Under the pieces are notes generated by a model, which saw only the letters and a program-made list of their open reading frames with translations, did no database searches and had not been told where the DNA came from. From positions 1 to 61,234 of the forward strand of contig JAFZIG010000140.1 in assembly GCA_017554485.1 (NCBI GenBank): a stretch of 61,234 nucleotides of DNA, in the 5' to 3' direction. The DNA is from Acidaminococcaceae bacterium. Its GTDB lineage: Bacteria; Bacillota; Negativicutes; Acidaminococcales; Acidaminococcaceae. Shown piece after piece: positions 7,490 to 11,793 of this stretch. The position numbers and the translations under genes are program-made. Position 1 is the stretch's first letter; each line of letters begins with the position of its first letter.

Positions 7490-8122
7490 CTACGCCAGCA
7501 CATCCTGCAGCTGGTACCATACCGCCTTAGCCCGGATAATGCCGCCGCCGGGATAAATACCGGAACCGGTAGCCCCGTCCGGCAAAAACCAAAGGTCCCA
7601 GCGCATTTCCGGATCCCCGGAACAGGGGCCGTAACCGTCGGCAATGGCAGCTTCCGCATGGGTCATCACGGTCTCTTCCGTAATGGGCAGTTCCAGATGC
7701 CGGCACAGCAGCGCCGTTATCTTGGCCAGGCATTCGATCTGCGGGGCAGTAGGTTTCTCCGGCCCGTAATTTACCTCGGCGGAAAGCAGGGGGCGCAGCC
7801 GTTTTGACCCAGCGGTCACACCGAACAGTTCCTCCTCCCTGGCTCCCACAGGCACTGCTACCGAAGCCCGGTACCCGCACTCCAGCGCGATACCGATGCT
7901 GCGGCCGTTGCGCTGCCACGTATGGGCCTTCTCTTCTGTCAGGCTGCGGCAGGTCCGGTGCACCGTCCCGTCCATATCAATATTCAGGTGATAATCATCG
8001 TAAGCCTGCCCGTAATGCCCCGCCGTCCAGTGCAGGTAAATACGGTCAATCTCATGACAGGCCGCTTTGGCCAGGTAAATAATTTCAGCTTCATCTATTT
8101 TTAGCGGATTCACTAAAAGCAT
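7490..8122 (-). CDS. N-acetylmuramoyl-L-alanine amidase domain protein (PGRP/Amidase_2)
   Basis: A 210-residue peptidoglycan amidase-like protein. The N-terminal motif RIYLHWTAGHYGQAYDDYH (His31) is typical of the zinc-dependent AmpD/PGRP fold. THAEA supplies a second candidate zinc ligand (His155), and RWDLWF (Asp176) or nearby Asp170 a third. There is no signal peptide or cell-wall-binding repeat, so export would need a holin-like route or another path. It lies 195 bp downstream of the DUF1659-DUF2922-YvrJ genes on the same strand, behind a strong hairpin. A phage-endolysin origin is possible. Confidence 0.85.
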   Translation of the reverse strand: MLLVNPLKIDEAEIIYLAKAACHEIDRIYLHWTAGHYGQAYDDYHLNIDMDGTVHRTCRSLTEEKAHTWQRNGRSIGIALECGYRASVAVPVGAREEELFGVTAGSKRLRPLLSAEVNYGPEKPTAPQIECLAKITALLCRHLELPITEETVMTHAEAAIADGYGPCSGDPEMRWDLWFLPDGATGSGIYPGGGIIRAKAVWYQLQDVLA

Positions 8123-8316: not shown

Positions 8317-8469
8317 TTACGCCCGCATGGCGGCTATACTGCAGCTCAGTTCGCCGATGACCTTTGTCAGGCTGTCCAGCTTGCTTTCCATGCGCACCAG
8401 CAAGTACCAGCTCAGAATCATCGGGAAACCGAAGTCCCTGATATAGTCAAACAACTGTGAAATTTCCAT
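8317..8469 (-). CDS. YvrJ-family small membrane protein
   Basis: A 50-residue protein starting MEISQLFDYIRDFGFPMI, with one hydrophobic helix at about residues 12-25 followed by VRMESKLDSLTKVIGEL. Size and sequence match the YvrJ family, named from Bacillus subtilis where yvrJ lies near the sigO/rsoA sigma-factor genes. Its start overlaps the stop of the DUF2922 gene (TGATG), implying translational coupling. Function is unknown. One helix plus a short charged tail is compatible with a holin-like or membrane-anchor role, which is only inference. Confidence 0.88.
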   Translation of the reverse strand: MEISQLFDYIRDFGFPMILSWYLLVRMESKLDSLTKVIGELSCSIAAMRA

Positions 8470-8687
8470 CAGTCGATGACGTCCAGGGTGGTGGTGCGCA
8501 CGCGGCCTTCTACCGCTTCCACCAGGTCGCCGCCGTTGGAAGTGAATACATTAGCTGCCACAATCGCGTTCATGGCGGTTTCCACTTCCTCTTTGGTGAG
8601 ACCGTCCTTGGGAGCCTTTACGGTAAGGGTACGGCTCTGGCCAGACGCGTTCTTGAACTTCAGTTCCAGTTCTTTTTCCGTGTTCAT
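8469..8687 (-). CDS. DUF2922 family protein
   Basis: A 72-residue soluble protein (MNTEKELELKFKNASG...) with the DUF2922 pattern of a short beta hairpin, then DGLTKEEVETAMNAIV and a C-terminal strand. It starts after AAAGGAGGAG and overlaps yvrJ by one base. The 138 bases between it and the DUF1659 gene contain hairpins but no gene. DUF2922 is a Firmicutes family of unknown function, usually found beside DUF1659 and YvrJ genes. Confidence 0.88.
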   Translation of the reverse strand: MNTEKELELKFKNASGQSRTLTVKAPKDGLTKEEVETAMNAIVAANVFTSNGGDLVEAVEGRVRTTTLDVID

Positions 8688-8825: not shown

Positions 8826-9050
8826 TTATTCGGCAATCAGTTCGGCTTTTTCAGACAGGGTGATGCCTGTCATGTCCTTGGCAAACAAACCGCCCAGCGC
8901 CTGGCCGGCTGCCGCAATCTTCACAGGATCGACATCCGGTTTTACGTTGTTGAAAGCATAGGCTTTCGTTACGGCTTTGCCATTGGCGTCCACGCCCTCA
9001 TCCACCAGGATGCTCATGGAACGTTTGGTAACGTTAACAGAAACTGCCAT
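8826..9050 (-). CDS. DUF1659 family protein
   Basis: A 74-residue protein (MAVSVNVTKRSMSILVDEGV...) matching DUF1659. The ATG at 9050 is preferred: GGAGG lies eight bases before it, whereas an in-frame GTG at 9059 abuts that site. It is the first gene of the minus-strand trio DUF1659-DUF2922-YvrJ and is transcribed away from the sigma-like gene. A conserved 35-bp element sits 58 bp upstream. Function unknown. Confidence 0.88.
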   Translation of the reverse strand: MAVSVNVTKRSMSILVDEGVDANGKAVTKAYAFNNVKPDVDPVKIAAAGQALGGLFAKDMTGITLSEKAELIAE

Positions 9051-9108
9051 CGTCTTCACCTCCTATCTTCGCGGCTGATTTTTCAACAGCTGTTTTGAAC
9101 CGCTCACC

Positions 9109-9143
9109 ACAGTAATCCGACAAAACCGGAAAAAGCGGAACTG
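9109..9143 (-). promoter_or_regulatory. 35-bp bipartite element, copy A, upstream of the DUF1659 operon
   Basis: Read on the minus strand: CAGTTCCGCTTT, six variable bases, then TTTTGTCGGATTACTGT. It matches the plus-strand copy at 10011-10045 in 29 of 35 positions without gaps. The two blocks, TTCCGC and GGATTA, are 16 bp apart, compatible with -35 and -10 boxes of an alternative sigma factor. The ends also form an imperfect inverted repeat (ACAGT/ACTGT type), so a dimeric regulator is the competing explanation. Confidence 0.65.
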
Positions 9144-9160
9144 CATTCTCAAAAAATAAA

Positions 9161-9193
9161 ACGCTTGACAATTACTTTTTTCAAGCGTATAGT
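9161..9193 (+). promoter_or_regulatory. Sigma-A promoter with overlapping operator for the sigma-like gene
   Basis: Perfect TTGACA (9165-9170), a 17-bp spacer and TATAGT (9188-9193). An inverted repeat ACGCTTGA (9161-9168) and TCAAGCGT (9181-9188), perfect over 8 bp with a 12-bp gap, covers the -35 and abuts the -10. Repression or autoregulation is likely. The transcript leader is about 45 nt. Confidence 0.75.
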
Positions 9194-9243
9194 TAGTCTT
9201 GTGCTTTTTTTTCAGCACATAATTATTTTCCGGGAGGATATAC

Positions 9244-9894
9244 ATGAAAAATTTAGATAACAAGAACAATTTTTGCCCGCTGAATACCGCAATCGGCCAG
9301 CTTATCTGCCAATACCAAAACGGGGACAGGAATGCAGCCCTGGAGCTTGCCAATATCTTCGACCCTTTGCTGGAACACGAAACCATGATTTTTTTGAAGC
9401 AGGAGCTTTTCCGCGAAAAAGAAGATGCAAAAAGCCAGGCGGTCCTGCTCTTTATGGAGTTCATAGCAAACTTTCACGATTTTGAAGCCGCTAATGGCAA
9501 AATCGCCGGACTTGCTAAGAAATACCTGCACGACAGCCGGATCGACCTGGTTAAATCCGCCGCCAGGCACTGCCCTGACTGCTACACGGTAGATTTCGAA
9601 AAAGAGTTGGAAGAGAATTCTCCGTTTTCACAGTATTTCCCCCGCTGCGAAATTCAGGCAGACCGCGAACTGGACAGGAAATTCCTGAAGAAAGTCCTGC
9701 TGGAATCCATGCAGTTCCTTACCCGGAAAGAAGGAACAGTCGTAAAAAAAATTATCCTGGAAAATAAGCCTCCCTCGTCAGTAGCACAGGAACTCCATTG
9801 CAGCACCCGTTATATTCGCAGGCTAAAGCATAGCGCGCTGGCCAAGATGCGCCTGTACCTTGAAACCCACTATCCGGCTTTAAAAGCTATATAG
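9244..9894 (+). CDS. Sigma-70-like RNA polymerase factor
   Basis: A 216-residue protein starting after GGGAGGAT. The C-terminal segment 162-203 reads as a sigma region 4 helix-turn-helix: a helix around EGTVVKKIILE, then SSVAQELHCSTRYIRRLKHSAL as the recognition unit. Residues ~35-80 resemble a degenerate region 2 (EDAKSQAVLLFMEFIANF). It is shorter than housekeeping sigma factors and closer to phage-like or SigO-type divergent factors. It lies divergent from DUF1659-DUF2922-YvrJ, paralleling the sigO-yvrJ association in Bacillus. I infer that it reads the 35-bp element found before both neighbouring operons. It could instead be a regulator that only resembles a sigma factor. Confidence 0.72.
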   Translation: MKNLDNKNNFCPLNTAIGQLICQYQNGDRNAALELANIFDPLLEHETMIFLKQELFREKEDAKSQAVLLFMEFIANFHDFEAANGKIAGLAKKYLHDSRIDLVKSAARHCPDCYTVDFEKELEENSPFSQYFPRCEIQADRELDRKFLKKVLLESMQFLTRKEGTVVKKIILENKPPSSVAQELHCSTRYIRRLKHSALAKMRLYLETHYPALKAI

Positions 9895-10010
9895 GCCATC
9901 TTGGAACAGCAACGAAAAACGAATTAACACTCTTGCATCTTACAGGCTCATTACTCCGTTTTTTAAAACAAAAGCGAAATCGCTCCCTTTTTCAAAAAAT
10001 TTAAGAAAAA

Positions 10011-10045
10011 CAGTTCCGCTTTGGCTTCTTTTGCCGGATTACTGT
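10011..10045 (+). promoter_or_regulatory. 35-bp bipartite element, copy B, upstream of the replication gene pair
   Basis: CAGTTCCGCTTT, six variable bases, TTTTGCCGGATTACTGT; counterpart of copy A near 9109-9143. A TATAAT at 10055-10060 with a weak TTGCCG 18 bp upstream overlaps it, so a sigma-A promoter may also operate here. Transcription from either would begin downstream of 10045. The rest of 9895-10135 is AT-rich with no gene. Confidence 0.65.
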
Positions 10046-10135
10046 ATTGAGTTATATAATTTTACGGGAAAACGGGGCGAAGAAATAATACGCAATGCGG
10101 CTTGCCTGGCTTTTCCCAAACCGGAGGCGTTTAGT

Positions 10136-10768
10136 ATGTCCTGTTTGATCACGCAGACCTGCAACGGCTATACTGTCACCCTGCAGGTAGAAATCCTTTC
10201 CGTCCGCCCGGTGTCTGAAACGGCGGACAAGAATCCGGCAGCCGCTTCACCGGCTCCTGGCCATGTACCGGAAGCCATTCCGGACACACCTGCAAATTAT
10301 CCCGGAGAGAAAGGCGGGGAAAAAGAAAGCGAAAAGAAAGTAACACAAAGAAAAGAGAAAGAAAAAGACCCGGAAAGAGAGAGCTTAGCCAGCCAGCTAA
10401 GCCGAATCGCTGAAGCGTGGAACCGGCTTCCCCTGAAAAAAATTGCCCGTTTTACCGGCAAACGCAAAGAGCGGACAGAGATGCTGCTGGCCCAATATCC
10501 GGTGGAAGAAATCGTCAGCACCATTTATTCCATTGCCCGCAGCCGCTTCCTGCTGGGCGGCGGCGCCAACCACTGGCAGATCCGCTTCGACTGGCTCATC
10601 CTGCCGGAGAACTTCGAAAAAGTACGGAACGGCAATTATCTGGATGAAGAAGAAGATACCGACAGGCAGCAAAGCCGCCCGGGCCTGGGCTACTGCAGCC
10701 GGGATTTGCAGGACATCAATCAGGTCTGGACAGACAGCAGCGATAGCTTAGCAGGAGGCAATGCATGA
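10136..10768 (+). CDS. Phage-type replisome organiser/DnaD-like protein
   Basis: A 210-residue protein from the ATG at 10136 (GGAGG eight bases before). A longer frame back to a TTG at 10031 would run through the promoter-like element and is disfavoured. Residues ~35-105 are a Pro/Lys/Glu-rich linker. The C-terminal part resembles the DnaD-like/phage replisome organiser module, with helix IAEAWNRLPLKKIARF and the diagnostic ending FLLGGGANHWQIRFDWLI, PENFEKV, NGNYLDE. Such proteins load the helicase loader at an origin. Its stop overlaps the next gene's start (ATGA), so the two are coupled. A domesticated prophage origin is likely. Confidence 0.75.
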   Translation: MSCLITQTCNGYTVTLQVEILSVRPVSETADKNPAAASPAPGHVPEAIPDTPANYPGEKGGEKESEKKVTQRKEKEKDPERESLASQLSRIAEAWNRLPLKKIARFTGKRKERTEMLLAQYPVEEIVSTIYSIARSRFLLGGGANHWQIRFDWLILPENFEKVRNGNYLDEEEDTDRQQSRPGLGYCSRDLQDINQVWTDSSDSLAGGNA

Positions 10769-11715
10769 ACAGAACGGAAAAAGACTGCATAAACGACCTG
10801 TTTCAGGATTCTGTCATTGACCGTATACCTTACACCGTGCCCATCAACCCGGAAGCCCGCCCTTATGAACCCGGCTATGACTGGGCCGCCCACGGCTATG
10901 ACGAACTGGATGACAACGTAAAATGGGATACGCATGAAGGAGATTATTATATCGACGGCGTACTATACTGCGCCCATTGCCACACCCCTAAGCAACACGT
11001 ACGGGACTGGCAGGGCAAAACCTACCGGTTTCCCATCCCCTGCCAATGCCAGAAAGAAGCGTTAGGCCGGCAGGAGCAGAAAATAAAACGCCGCAAAGCC
11101 ATGGAAAAGGCTCTGCGGTACAGGGAACTGGGGTTTTCCGATGAGGTGCTGAAAAACTGGACCTTTGCCCGGGACGACGGTGCCAGCCCCAAATACACCG
11201 CCATCATGAAGCGCTATGTGGAGCATTTCAGCGAATGCCGGGCCAAAGGCCAGGGACTGCTGCTCTACGGCAGCTGCGGTTCCGGCAAGACATACGCCGC
11301 CGCGGCCATCGCCAACGCCCTCATCGAGCAGGGCATACCCTGCCTGGTCAGCAACTTCGACCGGCTTTTTGATAAACTGATGGCGCCAAAGGCTCAGCGT
11401 ACCATGGAGGTGGAAGACCTGAACAAATTTGAGCTGCTGGTGCTGGACGACCTGGATGCCGAAGCGGACAACAAGTATGTTGATAATATGATGTTCCGCA
11501 TTGTGGACGCCCGTTACCGGGCCGGCCTGCCCATGATCATCACTACCAACCTGACCAAACAGGATCTGCTGAGTCCCCGTTCTGTGGCCAAAAAACGGGT
11601 CTATGACCGGATCCTGGAGCGTTGCTGCCCTGTTGAGATGACGGGCGCCAACCGTAGAGCCAAAGCCATGCAGGACAATATACTGGACATGAAGAAACTG
11701 CTGGGAATCGGTTGA
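10765..11715 (+). CDS. DnaC/IstB-like ATP-binding helicase loader
   Basis: A 316-residue AAA+ protein likely to deliver DnaB helicase. Cysteines 69, 72, 93 and 95 form a zinc-binding cluster as in phage and Firmicutes DnaC. Walker A GSCGSGKT is at 169-176 and Walker B LLVLDDLD at 224-231, with TTNLTKQDL as sensor I and an arginine-rich DRILERCC near the end. AGGAGG precedes the start, which overlaps the upstream stop. It is followed by a terminator. With the preceding gene it forms a phage-style replication-initiation pair. Confidence 0.88.
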   Translation: MNRTEKDCINDLFQDSVIDRIPYTVPINPEARPYEPGYDWAAHGYDELDDNVKWDTHEGDYYIDGVLYCAHCHTPKQHVRDWQGKTYRFPIPCQCQKEALGRQEQKIKRRKAMEKALRYRELGFSDEVLKNWTFARDDGASPKYTAIMKRYVEHFSECRAKGQGLLLYGSCGSGKTYAAAAIANALIEQGIPCLVSNFDRLFDKLMAPKAQRTMEVEDLNKFELLVLDDLDAEADNKYVDNMMFRIVDARYRAGLPMIITTNLTKQDLLSPRSVAKKRVYDRILERCCPVEMTGANRRAKAMQDNILDMKKLLGIG

Positions 11716-11739
11716 TTCCCAGCAGGTCACAGGGACAGA

Positions 11740-11772
11740 ACAAACCACCCGTCTGCACAACGGGTGGTTTGT
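11740..11772. terminator. Bidirectional terminator between convergent genes
   Basis: A 13-bp perfect stem ACAAACCACCCGT/ACGGGTGGTTTGT with a 7-nt loop lies between the dnaC-like gene (plus) and the convergent minus-strand gene. The 3' tail is only moderately T-rich on either strand. Confidence 0.8.
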
Positions 11773-11793
11773 TATATATTATGTATGTATCTG

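Follow-up and report, generated by a model that had tools for sequence, protein, structure and literature searches.

Two similar elements flank a divergent sigma-70-like gene in the 61,234-nucleotide stretch of Acidaminococcaceae DNA analysed here (the window; contig JAFZIG010000140.1), and both are most likely promoters for the sigma factor that this gene encodes. One precedes a leftward operon, DUF1659-DUF2922-YvrJ-amidase, and the other a rightward pair of replication genes. An earlier note had proposed that the factor activates both operons as a small regulon; this proposal gains from the sequence, conservation and exclusivity of the elements and from their covariation with the sigma factor, while the extent of the element had to be revised and the position of its -10 hexamer may need correction as well.

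The twin element and its cassette

The features of the cassette, in window coordinates, are:

7490..8122, minus strand: Amidase_2 protein (PF01510; best phage family phrog_5867 endolysin, E=5e-27)
8317..8469, minus strand: YvrJ protein, probable small holin (PF12841, E=8.6e-14)
8469..8687, minus strand: DUF2922 protein (PF11148, E=4e-24)
8826..9059, minus strand: DUF1659 protein (PF07872, E=1.6e-17)
9103..9143, minus strand: promoter element copy 1, with 5' block CAGTTCCGCTTT and 3' block CGGATTACTGTGGTGAG, ahead of DUF1659-DUF2922-YvrJ-amidase
9161..9188, no strand assigned: inverted repeat ACGCTTGACAA...TTTTCAAGCGT, covering the -35 box of the sigma gene
9165..9193, plus strand: sigma-A-type promoter of the sigma gene (TTGACA-17-TATAGT; consensus match only)
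9244..9894, plus strand: sigma-70-like factor of 216 aa, proposed reader of both elements (Sigma70_r4, TIGR02937, family profile)
10011..10051, plus strand: promoter element copy 2, ahead of the replication initiator/helicase-loader pair
10136..10768, plus strand: phage-type replication initiator (replisome organiser, DnaD/O-like; phrog_10469, E=3e-21)
10765..11715, plus strand: DnaC-like helicase loader (NF005992 above cut-off; phrog_50, E=1e-49)
11739..11773, plus strand: intrinsic terminator at the right-hand cassette end, with a 14-bp stem and a T-rich tail

The two sites originally placed at 9143-9109 (minus strand) and 10011-10045 (plus strand) are real, being identical at 29 of 35 positions, with TTCCGC and GGATTA 16 bp apart in both copies and the differences falling in the spacer, as claimed; the 35 bp are, however, too short at the 3' end, where the terminal TGAG had been left out. 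When the two upstream regions are aligned without gaps, their top-scoring match runs through this TGAG, with 33 identities over 41 bp and a score of 25; the best of 2000 dinucleotide-shuffled versions of these intergenic sequences reached 16 (mean 10, sd 1.3). Within the window the original pattern occurs only at copy 1 and copy 2, and exactly two sites were found across the whole 2.57-Mb assembly when up to 3 mismatches were allowed over the 22 fixed bases, a second, longer pattern again returning two. With 33 of 41 positions identical, the likeness might reflect a recently copied stretch of DNA instead of a shared function; we give this explanation almost no credence, since the similarity ends at the element borders, the differences lie in the spacer, and a related genome (G006, described below) keeps both copies separately with their blocks preserved.

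The exact -10 hexamer may lie a few bp downstream of GGATTA, judged from related promoters (GATTATATAAGTG), whose TATATAA is missing from the window element. A sigma-A-like match, TTGCCG-18-TATAAT, overlaps copy 2, so sigma-A could transcribe the initiator gene as well, or transcription could run into it from the sigma gene. The locus gave no Rfam match to an RNA element.

The divergent sigma-70-like identity suggested for the central gene holds, region 4 being detected directly but weakly and the remainder of the protein through the family profile only. The window protein matches Sigma70_r4 at E=6e-4, short of Pfam's curated cut-off, and TIGR02937 at E=6.5e-6, likewise short of the cut-off; among the 37 members of the family, 32 match Sigma70_r4 at E<=0.001 and nine match region 2, which Pfam does not find in the window protein alone. 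Along its whole length the family profile can be aligned with the ECF factor SigW (11-196). An AlphaFold model of the protein built from two sequences (pLDDT 50) is confident in the region-4 part only. The sigma-A promoter ascribed to the gene is present as a consensus match, and no copy of the motif lies ahead of the gene that could indicate autoregulation. The inverted repeat over its -35 box is a candidate repressor operator. Inverted repeats between the sigma gene and the lysis operon differ in each window-type cassette (window 9161-9188, L037:2586-2611, L036:4826-4844), which suggests cassette-specific repressors.

The leftward operon is probably a lysis set of the holin/endolysin type because relatives of its YvrJ protein match the holin family phrog_4898 (E 4.6e-4 and 4.5e-5, against just 0.057 for the window copy); through these relatives YvrJ is assigned as a probable small one-helix holin-like protein, and sigma, holin-type and amidase genes are in this way grouped in one cassette. 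Neither the window cassette nor that of G006 contains a bacteriocin or toxin cargo gene. A phage origin was considered and set aside: neither the sigma nor the DUF2922 protein had a tblastn match among 50,697 phage records, the amidase matched phage amidases that are only distantly related (the closest, at 35%, on an unannotated fecal phage scaffold), and no viral contig was found.

Under the mechanism proposed here, the sigma gene would be expressed from its ordinary sigma-A promoter and probably be repressed through the inverted repeat over the -35 box. Upon induction, the sigma holoenzyme would start transcription at both elements, its region 4 reading the TTCCGC block as -35 and its N-terminal, region-2-like part reading the GGATTA block as -10. 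Leftward transcription would yield DUF1659, DUF2922, YvrJ and amidase, and rightward transcription the initiator and helicase loader, so that with both promoters firing lysis and replication proteins would appear together. Direct recognition, the repressor, the lysis and replication activities and the inducing signal are all parts that we infer.

Conservation and covariation with the sigma factor

The whole seven-gene cassette, with both element copies, was found in an Acidaminococcaceae MAG from roe deer duodenum (L053; G006:C52), the only one, G006-like, returned by a single-genus scan of genome contigs. Its flanking DNA differs from that of the window, so the conserved block is the cassette itself. 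The elements are identical between the two genomes at 34/43 and 36/42 positions; elsewhere in the two intergenic regions 71/259 and 78/221 positions agree. In G018, from another genus of the family, the sigma protein is 30-34% identical, the operon is reordered with the amidase first, and one diverged copy, TTCCGCTTTTAAAATTAAATCCGTATTAGTAAGTG, precedes it. A search upstream of orthologues, proposed in the earlier note, therefore finds the motif kept ahead of both operons in G006 and diverged ahead of the G018 lysis operon. Nor does the motif recur genome-wide without a link to the sigma gene: G006, like the window's genome, has exactly two copies. The gene to the right of the cassette was found in six genomes, the window's own included, and none of the window's left-hand genes appeared in the retrieved neighbourhoods of that gene, which were used for an empty-site comparison.

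These orthologues bear on the suggestion, made originally as an alternative, that the imperfect ACAGT/ACTGT inverted ends present in both window copies mark operators of a dimeric repressor or activator. One arm is lost in each G006 copy (AGGTT...ACTGT; ACAGT...ACTAT) and G018 has TTAGT at both ends, whereas the asymmetric TTCCGC and GGATTA blocks and their spacing are retained in both genomes; the window cassette, moreover, contains no further regulator gene. We regard a dimeric operator as highly improbable. A decaying prophage remnant, in which the twin promoters would be functionless leftovers of a phage gene switch, has more in its favour, as the genes are phage-type, structural genes are absent from the cassette, and several sister cassettes have short or interrupted primase pieces next to them. 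It is nevertheless unlikely: the seven genes are intact in two species and, with dN/dS of 0.10-0.34 between the window and G006 wherever it could be estimated (the sigma gene is saturated at synonymous sites), are by this measure under purifying selection; the promoters are conserved amid diverged flanks and the flanking DNA differs in G006; and DUF1659 is present in 119 of the 150 relatives searched, often with DUF2922, YvrJ and a sigma gene nearby.

Most genomes of the window's genus have one to four cassettes, in which YvrJ-DUF2922-DUF1659-amidase faces away from sigma-initiator-loader, with an Xre-type repressor gene between the two arms in some of them. Comparing the sigma-gene and amidase upstream regions within these other cassettes mostly gave no shared motif clearly above chance, the comparisons being dominated by inverted repeats and low-complexity A/T runs, and a strict generic 36-base pattern proved too narrow for use. 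A family promoter became visible only when the sequences ahead of the amidase were compared from one cassette to the next; it consists of GGTTnCGTTTTT and, after a gap of 7-9, nnnSGATTATATAAGTGnRRGG. With a two-block matrix built from these promoters, it was found ahead of the amidase (endolysin) operon in 21 of the 23 genus cassettes that are amidase-first; of the remaining two, one has a run of N at that spot. With matrix scores of 17 to 22 for window copy 1 and for the G006 and G018 elements, the window element is, on sequence grounds, a diverged member of this genus promoter family. A second copy is peculiar to the window cassette and that of G006, since in the other genus cassettes the initiator and loader lie directly 3' of the sigma gene and lack the motif.

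A promoter recognised by the neighbouring sigma factor should change in step with it. Across 19 non-redundant cassettes, distances between promoters do correlate with those between sigma proteins (Mantel r=0.59, p=0.0002), a result to be read in the light of the few cassettes, of promoters first recognised by eye, and of the incomplete removal of shared ancestry by Mantel tests, and as a correlation, which is not the same as binding. The correlation is retained given the amidase (r=0.48) or the initiator (0.60, 18 cassettes); given the sigma, neither the amidase (r=0.06, p=0.24) nor the initiator adds anything. Controlling for the N-terminal part, the 5' block correlates with region 4 (r=0.36, p=0.0002; reverse -0.12); controlling for region 4, the 3' block correlates with the N-terminal part (r=0.41, p=0.0002; reverse -0.06). 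Such block-wise covariation would be expected if region 4 reads the -35 and region 2 the -10, and the result persists without the window-type cassettes.

Alternatively, the elements may be genuine promoters served by some other sigma factor or dependent on an additional regulator, with the sigma-like protein of the cassette doing something else. Pfam does not recognise the strongly diverged region 2 of the window protein, and sigma-A-like boxes overlap copy 2, both of which would fit such an arrangement; yet the promoter sequence tracks the adjacent sigma rather than the rest of the cassette, its two blocks track separate parts of that sigma, and no extra copies occur elsewhere in the genome. 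We judge it distinctly improbable, and recognition of both elements by the sigma factor encoded between them is retained.

Promoter arrays and a possible wider network

Family-type sites also stand ahead of a D5_N/DUF5906 primase gene elsewhere in genomes of the genus. G000, G001 and G003 have tandem arrays of four to eight sites there, mostly 50 to 84 bp apart, and G006 has a six-copy tandem series. The arrays are located as follows:

L139:8145-9600, L135:4165-4520, L134:9804-10141 and L140:8126-8422: tandem arrays of 4-8 variant promoters ahead of the D5_N primase gene
L143:2375-2744: tandem array of the same make-up (4-8 variant promoters)

The copies within arrays differ in their -35/-10 letters, and several match distinct cassettes of their own genome. 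Array copies resemble own-genome cassette promoters beyond expectation (p=0.0017 against a null in which arrays were reassigned among genomes; p=0.016 once two near-identical genomes were removed). In G012, the cassette and an unlinked primase both have TGGTTTCAAATTT + TTGCGGATATA, and in G007 and G010 GTTGCC occurs at both sites. The window-type motif was absent from the arrays within 3 mismatches.

Short or interrupted D5_N primase pieces were observed just past YvrJ (G000:C170:23404-23751, G013:C77:1957-2280, G006:C263:536-817, G003:C31:57903-58223), as if every cassette once owned a primase. About ten 21-bp repeats (CCGTTACAGGTAACGCAGATA) lie inside the initiator gene of a sister cassette (L051:1613-1817) and are probably origin iterons; the window initiator gene has no such iteron-like repeats. 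Two other kinds of site were noted. A related motif, AGCGTCCCTTTTTTGAAAGCTGAATC-GTCTATATAAGTGAGAGG, is repeated at L137:3220-5040, L148:7891, L149:617, L150:161 and L151:8300 and 9444, ahead of small Nif11/NHLP-type leader-peptide-like genes and, in two genomes, beside an ECF-like sigma gene; it has the appearance of a distinct ECF regulon serving peptide natural products. The sequence TATTATATA(A/G)GTGTAAGG occurs directly 3' of a GC-rich hairpin (CCCGG.GCATT...AATGC.CCGGG) at L141:8879, L142:7178 and L153:8366, with tRNA synthetase-like genes nearby in two of the three, and is probably unrelated to the 3' block.

The window cassette would be one of a family of phage-derived modules in the Acidaminococcaceae, each with its own sigma/promoter specificity. 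Taking the cassettes and arrays together, we tentatively propose, as a possibility short of a favoured view, that the family harbours a chromosomal network of paralogous phage-derived lysis-replication cassettes with mutually orthogonal sigma/promoter pairs, whose inputs converge on a shared primase: the tandem promoters ahead of it, up to eight in a regularly spaced array, would each be tuned to a sigma of their own. In the window branch the sigma would have gained control of the initiator and loader as well, so that a single factor would set off both lysis and the local replication of DNA, which might serve a programmed release of DNA.

DUF1659, DUF2922 and YvrJ are widespread in Negativicutes and almost unstudied; now that a sigma factor is predicted for them and its promoter defined, they have a regulon that can be tested, and their role is likely to be in lysis. 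The approximately 20 natural sigma/promoter pairs, with their box-by-domain tracking, would offer a resource for recognition rules and orthogonal expression parts. The promoter arrays, if true, would be an unusual case of one gene with separate inputs from several paralogous sigma factors.

Comparison with known systems

The closest parallels are found in dedicated sigma systems. As in the UviA/UviB/amidase module of the clostridial bacteriocin Bcn5 (PMC9527704), genes for a dedicated sigma factor, a small holin-like protein with one helix and an N-acetylmuramoyl-L-alanine amidase are neighbours and divergently arranged; unlike Bcn5, the window cassette has DUF1659 and DUF2922, no bacteriocin gene was seen in it, its replication genes are inferred to be co-controlled, and its promoter shows no relation to TTTACA. 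SigO-RsoA (YvrI-YvrHa) of Bacillus subtilis, which activates yvrJ and its own operon (PMC8103513), is likewise a diverged sigma system with yvrJ as a target; there, however, the factor is split over two proteins and oxdC is a target, whereas the window has one protein and predicted lysis and replication targets.

In domain make-up the window factor would resemble group 4 (ECF) factors, with region 4 and a putative region 2 but no region 3, and its family profile aligns with SigW and other ECF factors. It differs from them in that no anti-sigma gene was noticed, the motif has no autoregulatory copy, and the protein misses the TIGR02937 cut-off. Assignment to group 5 (TcdR/UviA), characterised by a TTTACA -35 box and an SRQ motif in region 4.2 (PMC4031146), was rejected because both features differ, the window having TTCCGC and CSTRYIRR instead.

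The Bartonella gene transfer agent with its run-off replication (PMC2697382) shares with the cassette the retention of phage-derived replication functions on the chromosome; capsid, portal and terminase genes are, by contrast, absent from the cassettes, and no structural gene was seen behind the motif or the two-block sites. A link to capsid genes was dropped, as the portal family searched (PF04860) occurs in some genomes only (three of five) and is absent from two cassette-bearing ones. On present evidence the cassette is probably not a gene transfer agent. A full-text literature search gave six papers that mention DUF1659, DUF2922 or YvrJ, and none of them treats the three as a system. Systems of this kind are already known; what appears to be new, within the searches made, is the combination with replication genes, the collection of diverged sigma/promoter pairs and the arrays of promoters.
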